Under the pieces are notes generated by a model. It saw nothing but the letters and a program-made list of their open reading frames with translations. It was not told the origin of the DNA and ran no database searches. From assembly GCA_017619335.1 (NCBI GenBank), contig JAFZSP010000033.1:1-64000 (forward strand): a DNA stretch of 64,000 nucleotides, read 5' to 3'. Position 1 is the stretch's first letter. Each line of letters starts with the position of its first letter. Origin of the DNA: Bacteroidaceae bacterium. GTDB taxonomy: Bacteria; Bacteroidota; Bacteroidia; Bacteroidales; Bacteroidaceae. The position numbers and the translations under genes are program-made. This document shows, piece after piece, positions 42,321 through 53,029 of the stretch.

Positions 42321-42857
42321 TTACCATGACCATATTTCCATATCTGGATCATTACTACGCTGTTGGGTGGTGCGATTTCCAAAGCAATCTATTGAGGAGC
42401 TGGAAGTTCCAAAGGTATAACCAGACTGATTGCGATGAACGCTTGTTGTATTCCCGAAGTAATCGGTTGAGGTCGATGAAGAGCCAGTGGAGCGTCCATA
42501 AGGGTCTGAGTATCGGGTGGTAGTGGTTCCGAAATAATCAGTGCTTGAATTAGCGGTACCTGTTGTGTTGCCGTAGCGGTCATGATGTGTGGTTACTGTG
42601 TTGCCGAAACAATCAGTGGAAGATTTGGAGGAGCCGATGGTGTTTCCATAGCTGTCTCTGTGGGTTGTGGTTGTGATTCCGAAGTAGTCGGTGGAAGAAA
42701 CAGACGTGCCAGTTGTTTGTCCGTACTGGTTCCGATGTGTGGTTGTTCGGTTGCCGTAGTAGTCGGATGTTGAGTGAGATGTTCCGACATTGTAACGTTG
42801 AGCACTTGCGGTGATGGCAAAAGCGACTGCCAAGAGGATTAATGAACACTTTTTCAT
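42321..42857 (-). CDS. Secreted protein made of 25-residue repeats (STDYFGNTTTTHR type)
   Basis: 178 residues. After a signal peptide (ends ITASAQ) the whole protein is six tandem units of 25 residues. Each has S-T/S-D-Y/C-F/Y-G-N near its start, then TTTTHRD, YGN and TGTS. Histidines recur at the same place, and two units have Cys instead of Tyr. I know no family for it. The regular Thr/Ser/Tyr pattern suggests a beta-solenoid or an extended surface protein. Its upstream region carries the GGTTAC...GTATAAA site shared with two other units of the island, so it probably belongs to the same regulon. Confidence 0.78.
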   Translation of the reverse strand: MKKCSLILLAVAFAITASAQRYNVGTSHSTSDYYGNRTTTHRNQYGQTTGTSVSSTDYFGITTTTHRDSYGNTIGSSKSSTDCFGNTVTTHHDRYGNTTGTANSSTDYFGTTTTRYSDPYGRSTGSSSTSTDYFGNTTSVHRNQSGYTFGTSSSSIDCFGNRTTQQRSNDPDMEIWSW

Positions 42858-42907
42858 AATTGTTGTTTGTTTAATGATTAATAATGAAGTTTTTTTTGTT
42901 GTTTCTA

Positions 42908-42940
42908 CCCTTTATACCTGGACATATAGAAAAGGTAACC
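42908..42940 (-). promoter_or_regulatory. Island promoter motif, copy A (GGTTAC-N17-GTATAAA)
   Basis: On the minus strand: GGTTACCTTTT ... GTATAAAGGG, with 17 bases between GGTTAC and GTATAAA. It lies about 50 bases before the start of the repeat protein. No TAnnTTTG element was seen there. Confidence 0.7.
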
Positions 42941-42957
42941 GGAAGATGAAGAAAAAA

Positions 42958-44217
42958 TTACAAAATTATGTGAGTTTGAGTGAAAATGTATATTGCTATC
43001 GCAGCGGACAACGCAGAGAAGAGGATGACTATGAACCAATTAGGTCTGGATTTTAGTTGATTCTCCAATTCTTCTATACGCGAAGAACTATTGGCCACTT
43101 GAAGAGCATATTCTGAGTTTTTCTTGGTTAACTCCGTAATAGAACCGTTTATCTTGCCGATGCTTTTCTGTAATTCGGCGTTTTGTTCATTGGCTTTCCT
43201 CAATTGCTGATCATGCAACTTCTGGCCCTCTTCCTGTGCTTTCGTCAATGCTTTCATCTGTTCTGTCAGGGCGGCGTTCTGCTTGCGTGCCTGCGTGAGT
43301 TCTTGCTCATATTGTTTCTTCACCTCATTGACCAGTGCTGCTTTTGATTTTGCACGCTGTTCTATGATGTCATTCACCATATTACTGAAATAAGAACCCA
43401 AGGCGAAAGGTACGTCCACCTCTTTATCCACCAGTTTCTTGATAAATGCAGCCTCATCCGGGTGACCCACTGCTGATATAACAGGAGTCTTCATCTGCAC
43501 GATTGTCTTCAATACATCTAAGTTGTCAAGTGCTCCCCAATCTTTCTCGCCTCCACCACCTCTCACGAGGGCTATAGCATCGTACCCTTTAAGGTCTTGT
43601 TGTTTCAGCATGTTTATCAGATCCAACGCTCGCGCAAAGCTACAACGCATTCTCACAAACTGCACTTTTTCCTTAGCCGCTGCATTCAGTCCTCTGTTAA
43701 AATCTGTCTCTGTAATTGCGGTTTCTGCGATAATCAGTCCAATCACTGGCCGCCTGTCCTCATACAGTATGCTTTCCAGAATCGTATCCACATTCTTGCC
43801 CTTGCTCTTGTTTTTAATCAGAAGTAGCTCGTTTCTCTTGGCATCCTCTTCTGAAACCACATTCGTTTGTACTGTCTCGGCCCAAGTCACTCCAAGAATC
43901 AGCTGGATGGAGCTATAGGCATTCTGCACATTGTATTCTAGGATACCTGCCACATTAACCAAACTTCCCGACTGGAGTTGACTGTGCAAGGCCAATGGAA
44001 TCTTAATGTTCAGATAACTATTGCTGGAGGCATCCTTCAAAAAATCGAAACAATACCCTTGATAAACCTGTCCTTTACCAAGAATGAAAATACCCTGCAT
44101 ATAAATCCTCAGTTGTCCCTGCCGACAAGTGTAATAATCTGTCGTCAGTTTTCCTTTATAGATATTCAGTATCTCCGAAGGCGCATAATAGCGCGCTAAA
44201 GTTGTTTGTTGAGTCAT
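42958..44217 (-). CDS. Membrane-anchored exonuclease VII large-subunit (XseA)-like protein
   Basis: 419 residues. Residues about 10-110 form an OB-fold-like N-domain (RIYMQGIFILGKGQVYQGYCFDFL). Residues about 150-290 match the XseA catalytic core: PVIGLIIAETAI, ALVRGGGGEKDWGALDN, TPVISAVGHPDE and VPFALGSYFSNMV. Residues about 300-390 are a long coiled coil, and 395-419 a C-terminal transmembrane helix (FIVILFSALSAAIAIYIF). Normal XseA is soluble and pairs with small XseB; no XseB is next to it here. The membrane tail makes this a separate version, perhaps cutting DNA at the inner membrane. Its start is about 19 bases from the shared promoter motif. Confidence 0.8.
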   Translation of the reverse strand: MTQQTTLARYYAPSEILNIYKGKLTTDYYTCRQGQLRIYMQGIFILGKGQVYQGYCFDFLKDASSNSYLNIKIPLALHSQLQSGSLVNVAGILEYNVQNAYSSIQLILGVTWAETVQTNVVSEEDAKRNELLLIKNKSKGKNVDTILESILYEDRRPVIGLIIAETAITETDFNRGLNAAAKEKVQFVRMRCSFARALDLINMLKQQDLKGYDAIALVRGGGGEKDWGALDNLDVLKTIVQMKTPVISAVGHPDEAAFIKKLVDKEVDVPFALGSYFSNMVNDIIEQRAKSKAALVNEVKKQYEQELTQARKQNAALTEQMKALTKAQEEGQKLHDQQLRKANEQNAELQKSIGKINGSITELTKKNSEYALQVANSSSRIEELENQLKSRPNWFIVILFSALSAAIAIYIFTQTHIIL

Positions 44218-44235
44218 AATAAGGTTGTCTTTTTG

Positions 44236-44269
44236 CCCTTTTATACGAGGAAATAGAAGAAAAGTAACC
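44236..44269 (-). promoter_or_regulatory. Island promoter motif, copy B (GGTTAC-N17-GTATAAA)
   Basis: On the minus strand: GGTTACTTTT ... GTATAAAAGGGC, spacing 17, directly before the XseA-like gene. Confidence 0.72.
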
Positions 44270-44331
44270 TAAAAGTGGTTTCCAAATGCATTTTTATGTA
44301 ACAAGAGGACTAATCTTAGTATAAAATCATT

Positions 44332-44339
44332 TATCTTTG
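44332..44339 (+). promoter_or_regulatory. -7 element TATCTTTG for the TPR-CHAT gene
   Basis: Matches TAnnTTTG, 18 bases before the ATG. The CHAT gene therefore seems to use the housekeeping sigma factor, not the island motif. Confidence 0.6.
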
Positions 44340-44357
44340 TAGCAAAAAATCAATACA

Positions 44358-47162
44358 ATGAGACGTTTTTGGTTCTTTATTCTTTTCATCCTGTCTGTGG
44401 ATTATTCCTTTTCTATAAAATATATTCGTCCTGTTTTTGATAGGACAGATAACTATGTCTTACATTTAGATAGTGTTGAACAAACTAAAGACTCGATATT
44501 TCTCTTCTTTACTTATGATGCTGAAGCAGGCTCATGGGCCAATATCTCTATACATTCGTTTATCCGAGATTGTGAAACTAATCAAGAGTACCAAATCCAA
44601 AATGTTTCAGGCATCCCATTTACTCCAAACAAACGTCATTTCTCGAGTAGCTGTAAATTGTTGGTCAGGATGAGTTTTAATGCAGGTAATTTTGATAGAT
44701 TTGATTTTATTGAGAATGAATCTGATAGTTTGGCTTTTAATATTCGAGGTATTAATTTGCTGGAAAAGAACCCAGAATCTGCAAGTCAATCTAACTTAGA
44801 AAAGGCTGCATCAAATTCATCAAGAGCCGACTTTTACTTTCGTATAGACGATTATAAAAAAGCCTTTGAACTGGAATTAGAAGCTATGCCAATATATATG
44901 GCACACTTAGGAAAGAAAAGTGTGAGATATGCTATTTCGGTTATGAATCTCGCCTTATATTCATGGAAGATGGGCAATTATGAGAAAGCCATTTATTATG
45001 GTAAAGAAGACCTATCTTTAAGTTTGTTTTTTTATGGCAAGGAGCATGAAACATATGCTAATTCTTTGTCATCTTTAGCTATCTATTATCAGTCTGTTGG
45101 AGATTTTATCCAATCTAAGGCGCTGAATGAAGAGGTCTGTAAGATACGCAAGAAGCTATTCGGAGATAAAAGCCCAGAATATGCAAACGCATTAACTCAG
45201 CTAGCTAAAGACTATCAAGGAATAGGGGACATTATACAAGCCATCGAATACACCGAACAATCATTAGCAATTACTAACAAGGAGGACATCCTATACCTTT
45301 TGAACCTCAACAACTTAGCCTCTCTATATTCTCATCTTCACCAAATCGAGCGAGCTGATAGCATCGAAACAGAGGTTGTTAAAATGGCGGAGAGTGTATT
45401 TGGTAAGCATCATAGTGAATACGCTACATATTTAGGCAATCTAGCAGGATATAAAGCTTTGCAAGGAGACTATTTCAATGCAATACAATTAGCTAAAGAA
45501 TCATTACATATTGACGAGGCGTTCGGCCCAAAAAGTCCTAAATACAAAAAGGGACTAAATAATTTAGCATATTTATATTATCATAGTGGTGATATTGATT
45601 CTGCTTTGAGTACATTACATAAGTGCTATAATTTATATGAGATTGACGATAAAATCACAGATAGAATCAATTACGTTTCCATTCTCCAGAGTTTAGCAGA
45701 GTGTTATGCTTCTAAAGGCAATTTTCAAAAGGCTGTTTCCTTTTCCAAAGAAGCCATAGAATCTTCACGTGAATATTTGGGTACTACTACTGGATATATG
45801 ACAATTAATGAAAAATACTTTTATTGGCAACAGTATCATGGTTTATTTGATGACAACTTTCCATATTATGTTGCTAAGCTAAAAGATGATTCACATATTC
45901 CCTATCTATATGACGTGGTATTATATTCTAATGGTTTTTCTTTTAGAAATAATAATGCTGATTGTTCTTGGGTGAACATCCAGAAGAGTCTAACAAAAGA
46001 TGATGTCGCAATTGAGTTTTTGTCACCTACGATTACATTAAACCAGCAGATGAGCATGATCTTTTATGCGCTTATTTCAGACTGTAGTAATTCTCCACAA
46101 ATGGTCGAATTATTTGATTTGAATCAATTGAGCAATGCGTTGTCGCAATCAACCAATAAAGATTCCACACTAGCAGAGCTTATATGGAAACCTATTCTTC
46201 CCCAAATAACGAAATACAAAAGAATTTTCTTTTCTCCAACATTTATATTTGATGCAATAGGAATCGAATATTTCCCAATTGCCGAAAACTACATCTGTGA
46301 TATGTTTCAAATGTATCGTATGTCTTCTACAAGAGAGATTATACGGATGCACTCCAAAAATAGTTCTTTCAGAAATTCTGTTTTATATGGTTCTTTAGAT
46401 TATGATAACGATGATTATTCACAAGTGATTGAAGGAATAAATAGTAGTAGAGTACACCGAGGAAGTTATGATCCATTACCTCATACACAAAAAGAAATCA
46501 CAGACATAGCGAAAATTCTAAAATCTAATAGCATTGATTGTAAGATTTTATCTGGAAATGAAGGAACAGAGGAATCTTTTAAGGCTTATTCAGGCCAGTC
46601 ACCTGATATCATTCATTTTGCAACTCATGGTAGTTATCTAAATAGTAATAAAGCAGCAACGGAGAAAAGTAAAAACAACTTGTCATTTATTTCTTCTGAT
46701 GTAGAAAATAGTCCTATGAACAAAGAGAAGGTTTTAACTCGTTCATTTTTGATTCTCTCGGGGGGCAACCGACTCATCCAACGTGAACCGATTTCTGCAG
46801 AACATGATGATGGAATTCTTACTGCAGCTGAAATCTCTCATTTGGATTTAAGTAAAACAGATCTTGTTGTTTTATCTGCTTGCGAAAGTGGTCTAGGCGA
46901 TTGGAGTGTGGACGGTGGACTTATGGGATTGCAGCGTGGATTCAAAGAAGCAGGAGTTAAGACCATTCTCATGAGTTTACGTAAAGTTGATGATGAAGCA
47001 ACACAAATACTGATGGTCGAGTTCTACAAAAATCTGATGAGTGGCAAGTCAAAACACCTATCTCTCAAAGATGCACAAAAGTATTTGCGCCAATATGAGG
47101 ATGGTAAATATGATGACCCGAAGTACTGGGCGGCGTTCATATTGTTAGATGGGTTAGACTAA
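44358..47162 (+). CDS. TPR-CHAT caspase-like protease
   Basis: 934 residues with probable signal peptide (ends SVDYSFS). Residues about 25-145 form a beta-rich N-domain. About 155-480 hold eight or so TPR units of the kinesin-light-chain type (YANALTQLAKDYQGIGDIIQAIEYTEQSL). About 620-930 are a CHAT domain with His757 in IIHFATHGSY and Cys842 in VVLSACESGLGDW, then GGLMGLQRGFKEAGVKTILMSL. CHAT proteases are separase/caspase relatives, and TPR-CHAT proteins work in several defence and death pathways. The gene is clearly AT-richer than the flanks, in line with transfer. It ends at a perfect 10-bp terminator. Confidence 0.88.
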   Translation: MRRFWFFILFILSVDYSFSIKYIRPVFDRTDNYVLHLDSVEQTKDSIFLFFTYDAEAGSWANISIHSFIRDCETNQEYQIQNVSGIPFTPNKRHFSSSCKLLVRMSFNAGNFDRFDFIENESDSLAFNIRGINLLEKNPESASQSNLEKAASNSSRADFYFRIDDYKKAFELELEAMPIYMAHLGKKSVRYAISVMNLALYSWKMGNYEKAIYYGKEDLSLSLFFYGKEHETYANSLSSLAIYYQSVGDFIQSKALNEEVCKIRKKLFGDKSPEYANALTQLAKDYQGIGDIIQAIEYTEQSLAITNKEDILYLLNLNNLASLYSHLHQIERADSIETEVVKMAESVFGKHHSEYATYLGNLAGYKALQGDYFNAIQLAKESLHIDEAFGPKSPKYKKGLNNLAYLYYHSGDIDSALSTLHKCYNLYEIDDKITDRINYVSILQSLAECYASKGNFQKAVSFSKEAIESSREYLGTTTGYMTINEKYFYWQQYHGLFDDNFPYYVAKLKDDSHIPYLYDVVLYSNGFSFRNNNADCSWVNIQKSLTKDDVAIEFLSPTITLNQQMSMIFYALISDCSNSPQMVELFDLNQLSNALSQSTNKDSTLAELIWKPILPQITKYKRIFFSPTFIFDAIGIEYFPIAENYICDMFQMYRMSSTREIIRMHSKNSSFRNSVLYGSLDYDNDDYSQVIEGINSSRVHRGSYDPLPHTQKEITDIAKILKSNSIDCKILSGNEGTEESFKAYSGQSPDIIHFATHGSYLNSNKAATEKSKNNLSFISSDVENSPMNKEKVLTRSFLILSGGNRLIQREPISAEHDDGILTAAEISHLDLSKTDLVVLSACESGLGDWSVDGGLMGLQRGFKEAGVKTILMSLRKVDDEATQILMVEFYKNLMSGKSKHLSLKDAQKYLRQYEDGKYDDPKYWAAFILLDGLD

Positions 47163-47163
47163 A

Positions 47164-47187
47164 ATCGGAGAGGTTGCCCTCTCCGAT
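47164..47187. terminator. Bidirectional terminator hairpin
   Basis: ATCGGAGAGG - TTGC - CCTCTCCGAT: a perfect 10-bp stem between the CHAT stop (47162) and the zinc-ribbon stop (47191). T-runs are weak. Confidence 0.7.
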
Positions 47188-47190
47188 AAG

Positions 47191-47346
47191 TTACCCTTCA
47201 TAGGGTTCGTCAAGAACCTTTTGATTTCCGCAATTAGGATTGGTGCAGACATACTCAGTAAGTATGCGAGCCATTCCGTCTCGGACTTCACTTCCTGACT
47301 TTATCGCTGTCATTGGATGACCGCAAAAAAAACATTTATGAAACAT
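47191..47346 (-). CDS. 51-residue zinc-ribbon protein, Ogr/Delta-like
   Basis: Translation from ATG 47346 gives a 51-residue protein with CFFCGHPMTAIKSGSEVRDG and YVCTNPNCGN. The pattern C-x2-C ... Y-x-C-x4-C with an Arg-containing centre is that of the Ogr/Delta zinc fingers, late-gene activators of P2-type phages, and also of small host relatives. It has its own promoter and a leader of about 100 bases (47347-47449). It may be a transcription activator or adaptor. It ends 4 bases from a terminator stem. Confidence 0.7.
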   Translation of the reverse strand: MFHKCFFCGHPMTAIKSGSEVRDGMARILTEYVCTNPNCGNQKVLDEPYEG

Positions 47347-47449
47347 ATTGTTATGTTTTTTGTGGAGGCATACCTCTAGCCACCATTAAACTTAGCAGTT
47401 TACGTGGCAGGAGGCACTTGTAAAAAGGAGGTCGAGGTGAACCTCGCCG

Positions 47450-47457
47450 CAAAGGTA
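47450..47457 (-). promoter_or_regulatory. -7 element TACCTTTG for the zinc-ribbon gene
   Basis: Matches TAnnTTTG. The leader that follows begins with GAGGTTCACCTC, a small inverted repeat. Confidence 0.55.
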
Positions 47458-47542
47458 TTAAAGAATTTCTAAATTGCCAAATATTTAACGTTTTTTATTA
47501 TCTAAGATGGTCTCCAAGATTTTTAAAGTCACGCACGAAATG

Positions 47543-48157
47543 TCAATCTCTCGGCAGAATCATCTTGTACATTCGCCGCGTGGTTGTCTGATTACCATAC
47601 ATGGCCTCGTAATTGTATTTGTTCTGTGCCACCTCGCTGAATTCAAAGTCACAGCTGCGATAGAATTTGACGGCACTGTATTCTCTTGTGTCCAATGCTT
47701 CAACGGTCAGAAACATCGTGGCAGAAAAGGTGTCAGCCTTGGACATCTTCCGAATCTCTTCGATGATGTATGTGCCCAAATGGTCATCAGGGTTGTTCCG
47801 TTTTTCTTCACAGACAGCCAGATAGTCGATTTCATAAGCGGGATATTTCTCTTTGTCCCAGAACATCTCAGCATCTTCTGGATTCGGCAGGACTGAGGCG
47901 TTTTGCTCCTTACGCTCAATGATTCGTCTATCTTCACTGTTGAGCACTAAAGCATCCTTGCTGAGCGCAAAGAATGCTACGGCCTTTTCCCCCTCGAATA
48001 CAATCCAAAGGTTGGAAAGCCGTAACTGAATGAATTTGTCCAGACCTTTCTCTTTGTCGTGGATGAAGTCATCCATGGACTTCACCCCACACTTGAAATC
48101 AGAAAGAGCCGAAGTGTCTAAAGCCCTCTCAATACGGATGCTGTATCTCTTTTCCAT
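47543..48157 (-). CDS. GNAT acetyltransferase, possible toxin of a two-gene module
   Basis: 204 residues from ATG 48157. It has a GNAT fold: LSDFKCGVKSMDDFIHDKE near the N-terminus, a strand YEIDYLAVCEEKRNNPDDHLGTYIIEEI with the acetyl-CoA loop near DDHLGTYI, FLTVEALDTREYSAVKFYRSCDF, and a C-terminal strand. The CGVKSMDDF start resembles GNAT toxins of the TacT/AtaT type (usually C-G-xx-xLDxFL). An upstream small gene overlaps it by 29 bases, as toxin-antitoxin pairs do. It could instead modify a small molecule. Confidence 0.7.
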   Translation of the reverse strand: MEKRYSIRIERALDTSALSDFKCGVKSMDDFIHDKEKGLDKFIQLRLSNLWIVFEGEKAVAFFALSKDALVLNSEDRRIIERKEQNASVLPNPEDAEMFWDKEKYPAYEIDYLAVCEEKRNNPDDHLGTYIIEEIRKMSKADTFSATMFLTVEALDTREYSAVKFYRSCDFEFSEVAQNKYNYEAMYGNQTTTRRMYKMILPRD

Positions 48158-48326
48158 CAAGTCCGAACCAATGTGCTTCGTACTGTTCGCTTAATCGCTT
48201 GGAACGTTCCACTTGAGCCCTTTCGCGCTCATTAAGTTGCCCGGTGGCGACACGGGCAACGGCATCACGAATCTGATCCGCAATGTCTCCTCCAATAGGG
48301 GCGCGCCTTGTCTTAATTCCTAACAT
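48129..48326 (-). CDS. 65-residue protein, putative antitoxin partner of the GNAT gene
   Basis: It starts at ATG 48326, 28 bases after a TACCTTTG promoter. It is helical and charged (DQIRDAVARVATGQLNERER, then QVERSKRLSEQYE) and ends DGKEIQHPY. I do not recognise it as a ribbon-helix-helix or other known antitoxin. The 29-base overlap with the GNAT gene in another frame suggests coupled expression. Confidence 0.6.
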   Translation of the reverse strand: MLGIKTRRAPIGGDIADQIRDAVARVATGQLNERERAQVERSKRLSEQYEAHWFGLDGKEIQHPY

Positions 48327-48354
48327 AATGGTACAATGACACTTGGTTTGGCTG

Positions 48355-48362
48355 CAAAGGTA
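48355..48362 (-). promoter_or_regulatory. -7 element TACCTTTG for the GNAT pair
   Basis: Matches TAnnTTTG. It separates the pair from the anti-sigma gene just upstream. Confidence 0.6.
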
Positions 48363-48402
48363 GCCACTTGCATTTGAATGAACAAATATTTTGATGAAAA
48401 TC

Positions 48403-49089
48403 TTACTTTGAGTGTAGCTTTTTTAATAATTCTTGTGCTTTTGCAGCTATTGGTGAACCCAAATTGTCTTGATAAAGGCTTTCTAAGAGAGGAATAGCTT
48501 TATCCGTCTGGTCATCTTTAATGTATGCCAATGCGAGATTCCAAACGATATCATTATCATATTGATAATAGGTAAACTCATCGGTCAATGATTGATGGAT
48601 GGATTCAAGTTCTGCTATGATGTCTTTCATATCCTTCTCTTCGTGAATACGATTGAAGAGTGAATAGAGTTCGGCAATGATGACAGAGTCTGTATCACCT
48701 CGTGACAGTTCATCAACATCGTAATGCTCATAGTAAGGAGTAAGCATCTCATTGATTCTGGCATATCTCACATTTTCTGCATGATAGCTATAACCAAAGT
48801 AGATGGCCAGGACGGCTGCAATAGAAGCTGCCCAGAGAGCAAGTCGTCGGACGCTGGAAGGACGCTTTGTCGCTGTGACTTCATTTATGATTACCTGATC
48901 GTGGGTGCTTTCTTTCTCTTTCAGGCCTTTTAGAAGAGCAGAGACAGCACGTGCTTGTTCTCTGAGGTCGGAATTCGACTTTAACTCCTCATGAAACAGT
49001 TCCTCTTCTTCTGGAGTCATTTCTCCTCGTAGGAAGCGCTCTATGAGTTCGTCCATTTCCTGGAACTTGATATCTTCTGTATTATTCAT
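48403..49089 (-). CDS. Anti-sigma-like protein, one transmembrane helix, TPR-like periplasmic part
   Basis: 228 residues. The N-terminus (about 1-75: MDELIERFLRGEMTPEEEELF) is the short helical region typical of anti-sigma factors of Bacteroidetes, without a zinc HxxxCxxC site. One transmembrane helix is near 82-100 (LALWAASIAAVLAIYFGYSY). The periplasmic part (about 105-228) ends in TPR-like helices (IVWNLALAYIKDDQTDKAIPLLESLY). The start overlaps the sigma gene by 8 bases. The layout fits a sigma factor held at the membrane and freed by a periplasmic signal. Confidence 0.75.
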   Translation of the reverse strand: MNNTEDIKFQEMDELIERFLRGEMTPEEEELFHEELKSNSDLREQARAVSALLKGLKEKESTHDQVIINEVTATKRPSSVRRLALWAASIAAVLAIYFGYSYHAENVRYARINEMLTPYYEHYDVDELSRGDTDSVIIAELYSLFNRIHEEKDMKDIIAELESIHQSLTDEFTYYQYDNDIVWNLALAYIKDDQTDKAIPLLESLYQDNLGSPIAAKAQELLKKLHSK

Positions 49090-49666
49090 AGTGCCTGCGG
49101 ATTAGTTCTTGATACTTTTGCTTGAATTTGCTGACGCACTTGTATTTCTGTGTCTTTACGGAATTGGCATTTGCGAAACCAAAGACGTCTGCAATAGTAC
49201 TCGTGGTATAGTTGTTCCAGTAATAGCCCAGAAAGATGTTGCGACAAGTTTCTGGCAGCGCGTCAATCACAGCTTGAACGATTCTCTCTGAATATGATTT
49301 TTCTTCCTGAGCCAGATCTTCCGTTGACCAATTGTATAGCGTGTCTATTTTGTCGGCCAGGAATTCGTCTTTTATTGTTACTGTTGCTTCATCAAACAAC
49401 GGAACCGTCCTTTTCTTCTGGCTGAGGAACTTCAAAGTCTGATTGATGCATACGCGGAGGAAGTAGGTGGAAAGAGAACTTGTCAATGTGGAGAGCTTGC
49501 CTTCTTTTATATTAAGGTATAGAGCGACAGAGGCGTTCTGGAAAATGTCATCCAAATCGGCATCATCCACAATGAAGGACTTACTCAGAAAAGAAAGAAC
49601 CTTTGGACGCTCCTCTGTAAGGAAAGCATTGAAGGCATGATGGTCTTGGGGTATCGTTATCTTCAT
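49082..49666 (-). CDS. ECF-type RNA polymerase sigma factor
   Basis: 194 residues from ATG 49666, which overlaps the caspase stop as ATGA. Region 2 is near 15-85 (RPKVLSFLSKSFIVDDADLDDIFQNASVALYLN), and region 4 near 125-190 (IDALPETCRNIFLGYYWNNYTTSTIADVFG, then SVKTQKYKCVSKFKQKY, the recognition helix). There is no region 1 or 3. It is the likely reader of the GGTTAC-N16/17-GTATAAA site found three times in the island, but this link is inferred from co-location only. No copy of that motif was found before its own operon. Confidence 0.88.
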   Translation of the reverse strand: MKITIPQDHHAFNAFLTEERPKVLSFLSKSFIVDDADLDDIFQNASVALYLNIKEGKLSTLTSSLSTYFLRVCINQTLKFLSQKKRTVPLFDEATVTIKDEFLADKIDTLYNWSTEDLAQEEKSYSERIVQAVIDALPETCRNIFLGYYWNNYTTSTIADVFGFANANSVKTQKYKCVSKFKQKYQELIRRHYE

Positions 49667-50538
49667 TGCTGCAAACTCGTTTCTATGACAATATTCTGAT
49701 TGTTGGGCCATCGCCCTTGTTGACGAATCATTTGTTTAAGCCTTTCTATGAATGATTGGGGCTGAGTTGAAAGTGGCTCTTCCTGCATCGTCTTTGCCAG
49801 ATGATAGGATAATGCACCATAACGAATACTCTCAACCCGGATCTCTGTATTCAATTGGTCTGCCCTGCATGCTTCCAGAAAGACAACATCTGACCATTTG
49901 GCATTATGCTCGACCTTAAAATGAGAACGTTTGTCTTTGATTGGTTTGAAGACTTTTCCATTTGGAGAGAAACCCACATGAGTTCCTCTCACCACGTCAT
50001 CATTACCACGAGAAGCAGTCCCGGCATGACAAGCATCGATGACAACATACACCATCCCATTCTTGCCGATCTTGGAGCGCAGTTGCTGGAGATACTTGTT
50101 CAGTTGGTCGTCCAAAAGATGGCGTTCACCTTGATAAACGCCTCTCCGATAGAGCTTGTATGCATCAATAGGTATGACGGCTTCATCCCAACCATCTTCT
50201 TCATCGCCGTCGAAGTCTTCTACAGGTTGACCATGAGTAGAGAAATGGAGGTAAACAATATCTCCCTTTTTACTTCCTCGGATGAACTGTTCCAGTTGTT
50301 TCGTGATTTGCAGATAGGTGGCTGCATCGTCAATGATTGCCGATATTTGAAAACCCTGTTTCTCTAAAATTGGTTTCAGGAGCTGGATGTCAGCAACCCC
50401 GTTGATGTTATTCCATTGATAGCTTGTAAGTGCAGTGTCATAATTGGATACACCAACCATAAACGCTCTCTTTCTCTGTGCTGAAACAGATAAAGAAGCG
50501 AACAATAACAGACAATATATCAACGACCTATAACTCAT
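49663..50538 (-). CDS. Exported caspase-like (metacaspase) protease
   Basis: 291 residues from ATG 50538, with signal peptide ending SVSAQ. Caspase fold: KRAFMVGVSNYD, DIVYLHFSTHGQP with His102, an acidic DFDGDEEDGWDEAVIPID, YVVIDACHAGTA with Cys170, and VVFLEACRADQ. Both catalytic residues are present. The signal peptide places it in the periplasm or beyond, opposite to the usual cytoplasmic caspases. Its gene opens an operon with the sigma and anti-sigma genes (4- and 8-base overlaps). I infer that it may cut the periplasmic part of the anti-sigma protein. Confidence 0.87.
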   Translation of the reverse strand: MSYRSLIYCLLLFASLSVSAQRKRAFMVGVSNYDTALTSYQWNNINGVADIQLLKPILEKQGFQISAIIDDAATYLQITKQLEQFIRGSKKGDIVYLHFSTHGQPVEDFDGDEEDGWDEAVIPIDAYKLYRRGVYQGERHLLDDQLNKYLQQLRSKIGKNGMVYVVIDACHAGTASRGNDDVVRGTHVGFSPNGKVFKPIKDKRSHFKVEHNAKWSDVVFLEACRADQLNTEIRVESIRYGALSYHLAKTMQEEPLSTQPQSFIERLKQMIRQQGRWPNNQNIVIETSLQQ

Positions 50539-50555
50539 TATTGGTTTTTTCTGCG

Positions 50556-50563
50556 CAAAAGTA
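50556..50563 (-). promoter_or_regulatory. -7 element TACTTTTG for the caspase-sigma operon
   Basis: Matches TAnnTTTG, 18 bases before the caspase start. It lies back to back with motif C (50584-50616). Confidence 0.55.
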
Positions 50564-50583
50564 CACAAATTATTTGAATTATC

Positions 50584-50616
50584 GGTTACCTTTTAGGAAT
50601 TTATGGTATAAAAGGA
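50584..50616 (+). promoter_or_regulatory. Island promoter motif, copy C (GGTTAC-N16-GTATAAA)
   Basis: GGTTACCTTTT ... GTATAAAAGG, spacing 16, 44-47 bases before ATG 50660. It faces the five-gene operon. Confidence 0.72.
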
Positions 50617-50659
50617 CGAAAAGAAACTCATTTTATTAACTTTTAAATCCTATTTAACA

Positions 50660-50908
50660 ATGAATCTGGACTTAGATGGCTCATTAGAGCGCCCCTTTAT
50701 GGAAGAGAATAACAACATTTCAGATTACATCGAGGATAAAGAGGTCCTCCTTGATGGAATGGAAGTGTACGAAACTGAAACAATCGAAGAAGATCGGTGT
50801 GTGTGGACAGAAGAAGACTCTTGGGAAGTTCTATCAGACGGTATGTATGAAGAAATGCCACGCAATCCGATTGCATATGATACTGCACTGGAAGCAATGG
50901 GGTATTAA
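50660..50908 (+). CDS. Small acidic protein, first gene of the vWA operon
   Basis: 82 residues, strongly acidic (MEENNNISDYIEDKEVLLDG, VWTEEDSWEVLSDG). No signal peptide, no known domain. It has a real promoter motif and a gap of 19 bases to the next gene, so it is probably a true gene. Acidic small proteins often mimic DNA or act as inhibitors, but nothing shows that here. Confidence 0.6.
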   Translation: MNLDLDGSLERPFMEENNNISDYIEDKEVLLDGMEVYETETIEEDRCVWTEEDSWEVLSDGMYEEMPRNPIAYDTALEAMGY

Positions 50909-50927
50909 TTCAAAAAAGTATAAAAAG

Positions 50928-51383
50928 ATGGATCAATGGCCCAATTTTCAAGTATTCACATTCAGAGAGTTTTCCTTCTCAGTTGAAAGTTATAAAGAAT
51001 ACATTTGTGGCTGTTTAGTGAACTCAGGTTATGTGAACTGTGTCGTTACTTTTAAACAGCACAACAATGGTAATTATCATTTAGGAGGAGTCATCTCTGT
51101 TCAGATTAGAAACAATCCTTTGAAAGACAAGATCCTTTCCTCTTTTGAATTCGACTCTTGCGTTACAATGGGTGACCGATTAATGATGTATATAGGTGCC
51201 AATCACTCTAACGTGGATGATACTTCATTACACATGATGACTTCCTTTATGGGTTACACAAGAGAAAGGAAAGACTATGTAACAAATGAACCCACAGTTG
51301 GTAATATATTTACTACCAATCAACAAATTGTCCGAATCGCATTCAAATTTGTGAATCCAGACAGACTGATAGAATTCTATTAA
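50928..51383 (+). CDS. Unknown soluble protein of the vWA operon
   Basis: 151 residues from ATG 50928; an earlier in-frame ATG would overlap the acidic gene by more than 150 bases and reads as a non-coding start. The protein looks beta-rich (FQVFTFREFSFSVESY, GYVNCVVTFKQHNNGNYHLG, RIAFKFVNPDRLIEFY). I do not recognise the family. Ten bases separate it from the next gene. Confidence 0.62.
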   Translation: MDQWPNFQVFTFREFSFSVESYKEYICGCLVNSGYVNCVVTFKQHNNGNYHLGGVISVQIRNNPLKDKILSSFEFDSCVTMGDRLMMYIGANHSNVDDTSLHMMTSFMGYTRERKDYVTNEPTVGNIFTTNQQIVRIAFKFVNPDRLIEFY

Positions 51384-51393
51384 AATCACCATT

Positions 51394-51861
51394 ATGACGA
51401 ACTACGAATACATTTTGATTGAGTGCAAGAATGCACATTACCATCAGTGGACACCGACGGCTGTAGAGGCATGTGTGAAGAAACTGAAAGGGTTAACGCG
51501 GGAAGAACTGGTGAGACTTTTCACTTCTCGTTGGCTGGACAAGAAGGATGAACTGCGGCAGGTCATCTTTGCCATACTGTTCCAGAATGAGAAAGAGCAG
51601 TTGGAAGCGATGATTCATAATGCGAGCGTTGAGGACCTGGGAAAGATGCTCATCGAGAAGAATGGCAAGTATGTCAAGTGGGCACGTCAGGAACTGAAAG
51701 AGCGGTACCAGCGCGTTGACCACGATACACAAATGAGCATCATCAGCTTTTTCATGAGAGGGCAAACGAAGACTGATGTGAAGTGGGGACAAGTGCGTGA
51801 GAAATGGCAGAAGCGCGGCTTCGCTAATCCTCCAAGTATCTTTGATTCATGGGGGAAGTAA
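51394..51861 (+). CDS. Unknown helical protein of the vWA operon
   Basis: 155 residues, helical and charged (VEACVKKLKGLTREELVRLF, LDKKDELRQVIFAILFQNE, GKYVKWARQELKERYQ), with the look of HEAT-like hairpins. No family is recognised. Confidence 0.62.
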   Translation: MTNYEYILIECKNAHYHQWTPTAVEACVKKLKGLTREELVRLFTSRWLDKKDELRQVIFAILFQNEKEQLEAMIHNASVEDLGKMLIEKNGKYVKWARQELKERYQRVDHDTQMSIISFFMRGQTKTDVKWGQVREKWQKRGFANPPSIFDSWGK

Positions 51862-51902
51862 TAACAAATATCGATTATTAACCATTATAAAAGAGTAGAA
51901 AC

Positions 51903-52601
51903 ATGAAACAAAAAGTTTACAATCTGATCATTCTCGACGAGAGTGGATCAATGACTACAATTCAAGGTGTAGCCGTGAGCGGTGTCAATGAGACGCTTCA
52001 AACAATAAAAAATGCGCAGAGAGAGCATCCTGAAATCCAGCAATTTGTAACATTGGTGCCGTTTAATTCGATTCGGATTCATAGTCCATTCTTCCTGAAA
52101 GAAGTTGATGTGGAGGAGCCTTTGAACTGGACGGATTATATGCCAGATGGTTGTACTCCCTTATATGATGCGATGGGAATGTCCATTCAGAAGTTAAGGG
52201 AAGTCGTTACCGATGAGGATGTGGTACTGGTAACCATTATCACCGATGGTCTGGAAAATGCTTCAAGAGAATACTCAGGAAGTATGATTCGTCATCTGGT
52301 CTGTGAATTGAAGGAGAAAGGCTGGGTCTTTGCATACATCGGAACTAATCATGATGTAGATGCAGTTGCAGATAATCTGGACATCCATAGCAGAGCGAGC
52401 TACGATTGTTCTCTCAAGGGTGCTGGTGAAATGTTCGAAATGGAGAATCGCAGCAGAAGAACCTTCTATGAAAGATTGTCATCCGTGGGAAGATGCTTTC
52501 TTATAGAGGAAGACATTGACTATTTCAATCAGGACAATGGGAATAAAGAAAAAAGTAAGTGTAATATTAACTGGAACCAAATAGATTCTATATCATTTTA
52601 A
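51903..52601 (+). CDS. Von Willebrand factor A domain protein
   Basis: 232 residues. A cytoplasmic vWA domain fills most of the protein. The metal-ion site is complete: Asp12-x-Ser14-x-Ser16 in ILDESGSM, the Thr in DGCTPLYDA, and the Asp in IITDGLEN. Later strands include GWVFAYIGTNHDVDAVAD, as in TerY-like stress vWA proteins. The last 60 residues (RRTFYERLSSVGRCF) are a short tail. It may act as a scaffold that binds another gene product of the operon. Confidence 0.85.
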   Translation: MKQKVYNLIILDESGSMTTIQGVAVSGVNETLQTIKNAQREHPEIQQFVTLVPFNSIRIHSPFFLKEVDVEEPLNWTDYMPDGCTPLYDAMGMSIQKLREVVTDEDVVLVTIITDGLENASREYSGSMIRHLVCELKEKGWVFAYIGTNHDVDAVADNLDIHSRASYDCSLKGAGEMFEMENRSRRTFYERLSSVGRCFLIEEDIDYFNQDNGNKEKSKCNINWNQIDSISF

Positions 52602-52615
52602 TCTGATTGTGAATT

Positions 52616-53029
52616 ATGAAACGTATTGAAACACTGAAATGTAACCATCCCAGAATCTTTTGGGTGAGTTGGGGCGCAACCCTATTATGGATGGTTACGG
52701 TTACTATCAATTATGCCAGCGGGTACACGCTCATCTTCCAATATTTGTTGGATGACTTGGGATTTTTACTATTGCCAACGGGTATGTTCTTCATGTTCAG
52801 CTCACTCGATTGGAGCGAGGTAGAGAACTTTGCCTTTTTCCTTCATCCTGGCCGTTTAAAGCAGATAGGATTTGACTACCTTGCCATGTTCATACTTCTT
52901 TGCTTTTTCAGAGAGTATACGGAGTGGCTGCGAAATGCACTCATTATGCTATCACTCACAAAATATCTTTATGATATGATTAAACTGGCAGATATGAAGA
53001 AAGTGGAAAGAGAGATAGTAATAGAATGA
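52616..53029 (+). CDS. Small multi-pass membrane protein, last gene of the vWA operon
   Basis: 137 residues with three or four transmembrane helices (WVSWGATLLWMVTVTI, LGFLLLPTGMFFMFS, YLAMFILLCFF, and a weaker one near the C-terminus). The N- and C-termini are basic and charged. No family is recognised. It could be the membrane effector or anchor of the operon. Confidence 0.62.
   Translation: MKRIETLKCNHPRIFWVSWGATLLWMVTVTINYASGYTLIFQYLLDDLGFLLLPTGMFFMFSSLDWSEVENFAFFLHPGRLKQIGFDYLAMFILLCFFREYTEWLRNALIMLSLTKYLYDMIKLADMKKVEREIVIE

Follow-up and report, generated by a model that had tools for sequence, protein, structure and literature searches.

The XseA-like gene of the window (the whole 64,000-nucleotide stretch of Bacteroidaceae DNA analysed here) lies under an ECF switch that is linked to caspase and CHAT genes, a broader island context than was described in an earlier note on this DNA. 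Judged by its sequence, the product is a tail-anchored relative of the exonuclease VII (ExoVII) large subunit and is distinct from the housekeeping enzyme. The preferred reading, which is given slightly less than an even chance, is that a local alarm circuit induces this ExoVII-like nuclease as its output, with defence against phages or mobile elements as the most likely purpose.

The XseA-like protein and the housekeeping enzyme

The XseA core that had first been recognised by eye is present in the 419-residue product (Table 1), which contains both of the motifs quoted at the time, ALVRGGGGEKDW and VISAVGHPDE. The Pfam model Exonuc_VII_L (PF02601) matches residues 186-389 (3e-18, 66.8 bits against a cut-off of 35.9), and the score of 65.5 bits against the xseA equivalog TIGR00237 does not reach its cut-off of 180. 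For the catalytic part only, profile-profile comparison with XseA by hhalign gives a probability of 98.4% and an E value of 7.9e-15. Residue-by-residue alignment places D172, R219, H252 and E255 opposite D155, R205, H238 and D241 of the E. coli enzyme. The mutagenesis of ExoVII by Poleszak et al. in 2012 reportedly identified these four E. coli positions as the catalytic residues. The title of PDB entry 8txr, ExoVII(H238A), is consistent with a catalytic H238. When the tailed family is aligned with E. coli XseA, every one of the 15 members has the same residues as E. coli at D155, R205 and H238; at the D241 position, ten members, the window clade among them, have Glu and five have Asp.

A coiled coil and a transmembrane tail had been described behind this core. 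Both elements are present, and the length of the coiled coil is corrected from 90 to about 105 residues (286-390), all of them free of proline. This is followed by a hydrophobic helix (395-413), which is preceded by KSR. As basic residues stand before the helix, the N-terminal part of the protein should be cytoplasmic under the positive-inside rule. The terminal hydrophobic helix is absent from the housekeeping XseAs in an alignment of eight of these with 14 homologues.

Structure prediction, which the earlier note had proposed, agrees with an ExoVII-type fold at low model confidence. The full-length model (six close sequences, pLDDT 49) is of low confidence and was used only for its one long helix, 278-389. 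The AlphaFold2 domain model of residues 1-287 was built on seven sequences with a mean pLDDT of 65.7. Its best Foldseek match is to the 8txr chains of E. coli ExoVII (E 9e-10), though the two superpose poorly as a whole. In VIA-align, residues 6-117 of the model match OB-fold proteins with a Z of about 11.

The genome to which the window belongs (3.59 Mb; 3,593,010 bases in 103 contigs, 88.9% complete) also carries an ordinary XseA on a separate contig (C80:5959-6837, 257.6 bits), with an XseB ORF of 65 residues about 330 bp behind it. The single match to PF02609 (XseB) in the genome lies at this housekeeping locus (C80:7219), and no xseB adjoins the XseA-like gene, as had been stated from the window. 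The earlier note had named as a refutation a genome with no xseA but this one, and the second xseA/xseB locus rules that out. The protein resembles E. coli XseA (b2509; PDB 8txr) in its OB-like N-terminus, its D155/R205/H238 equivalents, its long coiled coil and its best fold match. It differs in the lack of an adjoining XseB, the transmembrane C-terminal segment, the change of D241 to Glu, an identity of about 20% in the core, and its place as an island gene behind an ECF-type promoter.

The island and its promoters

Table 1. Features of the island and of the XseA-like gene, in window coordinates
Feature	Position	Strand	Basis
Secreted repeat protein, 178 aa; adjoins XseA-like gene in most orthologous loci	42321..42857	-	
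ECF-type promoter of 178-aa gene, GGTTAC-N17-GTATAAA	42911..42940	-	
XseA-like protein, 419 aa, C-terminal transmembrane tail	42958..44217	-	ORF list, Pfam, TIGR00237, alignment
Single C-terminal transmembrane helix, residues 395-413	42979..43035	-	Alignment; basic residues on N-side
Predicted coiled coil, residues 286-390	43048..43362	-	Modelled helix, composition
ExoVII catalytic domain, residues 150-285	43363..43770	-	hhalign alignment, Pfam
OB-like domain, N-terminal, residues 1-120	43858..44217	-	AlphaFold2 strands 37-117; VIA-align Z
ECF-type promoter of XseA-like gene, GGTTAC-N17-GTATAAA	44240..44269	-	
TPR-CHAT protease, signal-peptide-like N-terminus, H757 and C842 present	44358..47162	+	Pfam CHAT 1.7e-53
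Weakly GNAT-like protein, likely cargo	47543..48160	-	Profile search; L098 homologue
Predicted anti-sigma factor; N-terminus in cytoplasm, single TM starting at residue 83, C-terminus in periplasm	48403..49089	-	
ECF sigma factor; may in fact start at 49666	49082..49711	-	TIGR02937 4.9e-17
Secreted caspase (Peptidase_C14), HFSTHG and DACHAG motifs, ATG 50538	49663..50538	-	Pfam 7e-17
ECF-type promoter of cargo operon, GGTTAC-N16-GTATAAA	50584..50612	+	
Acidic protein, 82 aa, opens cargo operon	50660..50908	+	
Conserved island protein, 150 aa, without Pfam family	50931..51383	+	
Conserved island protein, 155 aa, without Pfam family	51394..51861	+	
vWA-like protein by eye (LDESGSM), without Pfam match; L100 homologue beside cassette	51903..52601	+	

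The orthologous loci hold a block in common, which consists of the genes for the 178-residue protein, the XseA-like protein, the TPR-CHAT protease, the anti-sigma factor, the ECF sigma, the caspase, the acidic protein and the conserved proteins of 150-151 and 155 residues. A few loci miss one piece of this block or meet a contig end, and the flanks differ among all of them except one pair. An orthologue of the sigma factor was found in 6 of 139 congeners; in five it lies beside an XseA-like gene and in one at a cut contig end. Compared with the window's protein, the CHAT proteins of other XseA islands show 40-52% identity in the CHAT domain and 20-32% in the TPR part, and in two loci (L033 and L037) their N-terminus has been replaced. 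The stronger divergence of the TPR part would suit a diversifying sensor.

The GNAT-like protein is probably cargo, since a homologue of 72% identity lies beside the cassette in another genus (L098 11554-12171). The 178-residue repeat protein is rich in Ser, Thr, Tyr and Gly, and has a homologue (L114 5417-6040) by a CHAT cassette of another genus. The island ORFs (42321-53029) include no CRISPR effector (Cas7-11 or Cas10) and no repair genes. No recognised defence system was found near the island, and the PADLOC models gave only coiled-coil and TPR matches to the XseA-like, CHAT and 178-residue proteins.

Control by an island motif had also been claimed, and this is borne out by the whole genome. 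The pattern GGTTAC-N16-18-GTATAAA has three exact matches in 3,593,010 bases, all of them inside the island, and a reversed control pattern has one genomic match. All 11 exact matches in six island-bearing congeners fall in islands, with none in eight congeners that lack the island and none in a further congener whose island is cut by a contig end. The loose motif GTWACYTTTTCT is by itself too weak to use. Orthologous genes are preceded by the same promoter architecture with small changes. The sequence of the window locus contains ECF sigma domains, an adjoining one-TM partner and a bipartite promoter. The three promoters are probably read by the island ECF sigma factor, because of this co-occurrence and because caspase-linked sigma factors in other genera have similar motifs next to them. 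Together with the conserved anchor and catalytic residues, this favours the earlier picture of a nuclease domain that would be anchored to the inner membrane and produced when needed.

Relatives of the XseA-like protein and of the cassette

The core, the coiled coil and the single C-terminal transmembrane helix are kept in all 15 chromosomal members compared. The tailed family is separated from housekeeping XseA with a branch support of 100/100 in a tree whose long branches leave the placement of some rows unsure. It is proposed from these sequences that the tail-anchored XseA-like proteins make up a distinct Bacteroidota family. Homologues, full or partial, that score far above the XseA background occur in 8 of 139 congeneric genomes, including that of the window. 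At E 1e-15, six of the 399 genomes searched at the family level have a member, as have five of the 395 at the phylum level, and both counts include the window's own genome. Public genome contigs gave five loci in rumen Bacteroidaceae and Bacteroidales MAGs, which are probably the congener records themselves. One diverged fragment of 189 residues (L039 7797-8366 on G120:C13; about 34-36% identity) is found without the cassette and adjoins a gene of 1233 residues near a contig end.

Relatives are also found on plasmids and on a viral-catalogue contig. Plasmid pE2-28 of Prevotella sp. E2-28 carries a homologue whose neighbours include type I restriction, GIY-YIG, WYL and AAA genes. A Bacteroides ovatus plasmid has a truncated copy that lacks the tail and lies beside a PADLOC candidate protein. 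On an IMG/VR contig (L075 5950-7290), the XseA-like gene follows closely behind BREX pglZ and brxL, and an in-frame TAG precedes its transmembrane tail. Among 50,697 phage records there was one near-full-length match, in an unannotated faecal contig. The gene was rejected as a typical phage gene, as its matches were that faecal contig and the BREX-carrying IMG/VR contig. Viral scans with housekeeping XseA and two further queries, L057 and L061, gave no relatives. Distant tailed XseA-like genes lie by a LigD-type fusion and a Y-family polymerase in L062 (8451-17252), and by UDG and a Y-family polymerase in L058 (6005-10251). In some other homologue loci the neighbours are uninformative.

The protease cassette is spread more widely. 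Of the 399 family genomes, 51 hold caspase homologues at E 1e-25, and 17 of 30 genera are represented. In the 20 loci with the best caspase scores (L097-L116), blastp placed CHAT near the caspase in all 20, a sigma factor in 18 and an anti-sigma factor in 17, and found no XseA-like gene. The cargo families of these 20 loci include AbiH, AbiGi, ART-like DUF3990, DUF2971 and DUF4407, an association that is given without a background rate. The caspase and CHAT proteins have hydrophobic, signal-peptide-like starts, and nearly all retain the catalytic His/Cys motifs; for the XseA islands, the His/Cys pair of CHAT was compared in a residue-by-residue alignment. The proteases are probably periplasmic, as suggested by these N-termini when judged by eye.

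The proposed circuit, its rivals and known systems

Based on gene content, linkage, the promoter copies, and the conserved anchor and catalytic residues, the following circuit may be proposed. A signal at the envelope would enter a periplasmic relay of CHAT and caspase proteases, which would cut the anti-sigma factor on its periplasmic side. This would release the ECF sigma, and the free sigma would induce transcription from the three island promoters. The tail would keep the catalytic part of the nuclease at the inner membrane, on the cytoplasmic side, and the coiled coil of the protein may substitute for XseB in oligomerisation. If active, the nuclease would then degrade single-stranded or freshly injected DNA, of phage or conjugative origin, at the point of entry. 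The Abi cargo of sister cassettes and the BREX or restriction genes near some homologues make a defence purpose plausible. For the barrier against phages or DNA uptake that the earlier note had envisaged, this association speaks in favour and the Glu at the D241 position against. A wider proposal is that an immune chassis is widespread in Bacteroidota: an attack on the envelope would be sensed by secreted proteases of the caspase and CHAT types, which would free a dedicated ECF sigma and so induce interchangeable effectors. The effector of the rumen clade would be the tail-anchored ExoVII relative, destroying DNA during its passage across the inner membrane. This wider proposal is tentative and held to be somewhat unlikely.

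The induced nuclease could instead attack the cell's own DNA, in abortive infection or altruistic death, and so would not act as an entry barrier. XseA without enough XseB is said to be toxic in E. coli (Jung et al. 2015). If an unpartnered XseA is harmful, the circuit would be one of abortive infection, to which the missing partner gene, the tight control through three promoters, and the AbiH and AbiGi families of sister cassettes would all be suited. A membrane tether would restrict access to the chromosome, and this suicidal role is considered unlikely.

ECF/anti-sigma pairs are classical envelope-stress switches, and UDG, Y-family polymerases or a LigD-type cluster adjoin some family members. 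These features would agree with a repair exonuclease for envelope or DNA damage that is induced by stress, stays at the membrane and has no immune role. Such an explanation appears quite unlikely: the island of the window has no repair genes, the gene is an accessory one of scattered occurrence (8 of 139 congeners), and the surroundings of the island vary between genomes.

The Glu that replaces D241 in the window clade and the poor equivalog score raise the possibility of a weak or dead nuclease, which would bind nucleic acid and tether DNA or RNA to the membrane. This is improbable, as the D155, R205 and H238 equivalents persist in 15 of 15 members and the substitution by Glu is conservative. 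The gene is also under strong constraint, as shown by a dN of about 0.12-0.20 with a saturated dS. Identity with the housekeeping large subunit, which has the Exonuc_VII_L domain in common, has next to no chance and was ruled out by the full-scoring xseA with its xseB on contig C80 and by the split in the tree.

The proposed alarm circuit has counterparts among known systems. In the DegS/RseA/RpoE system, periplasmic proteolysis of a one-TM anti-sigma factor releases an ECF sigma. The window island has a one-TM anti-sigma factor, an ECF sigma and a proposed periplasmic proteolysis; its proteases, in contrast, belong to the caspase clan and are encoded in the locus, and its regulon is apparently local only. 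In type III CRISPR, a cascade runs from a SAVED-CHAT protein through a prokaryotic caspase to a sigma factor. CalpL carries a SAVED domain and responds to a cyclic nucleotide, whereas the window island has no SAVED domain. A similar logic of protease, anti-sigma and sigma is described for CalpL/CalpT/CalpS of type III CRISPR (PMC11417357).

In the type III-E Craspase, experiments have shown that Csx29 (TPR-CHAT) cuts Csx30, the inhibitor of CASP-sigma, and that sigma motifs lie inside the locus (PMC10028731). Common to both are a TPR-CHAT protease in linkage with an ECF sigma and an inhibitor of it, and the presence of sigma motifs within the locus. The window island, in contrast, has no CRISPR effector and encodes a second caspase; its proteases have signal-peptide-like N-termini, a membrane anti-sigma factor stands in the place of the inhibitor, and the output is a predicted nuclease. 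From genome context, CHAT genes have been linked with ECF54 sigma factors, which are proposed to be anti-sigma-independent (PMC8999054), and metacaspase-sigma70 operons have been reported, with mainly Deltaproteobacteria named (PMC3501461). In these reports, as in the window, sigma factors are paired with CHAT or caspase genes; the accessible parts of both reports mention no XseA-like cargo. The literature searched on XseA and defence held nothing on the tailed family. The combination of parts is new to the literature searched, and the single parts have precedents.

If the proposed circuit is correct, caspase-like proteases of gut and rumen Bacteroidota would be tied to the control of immune effectors at the level of transcription without CRISPR, and the ExoVII family would gain an inducible, membrane-anchored branch. 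With a regulon of three promoters, the circuit is small enough for transfer to a laboratory Bacteroides and study there. On Bacteroidota plasmids, the label “exodeoxyribonuclease VII large subunit” can conceal a different protein.
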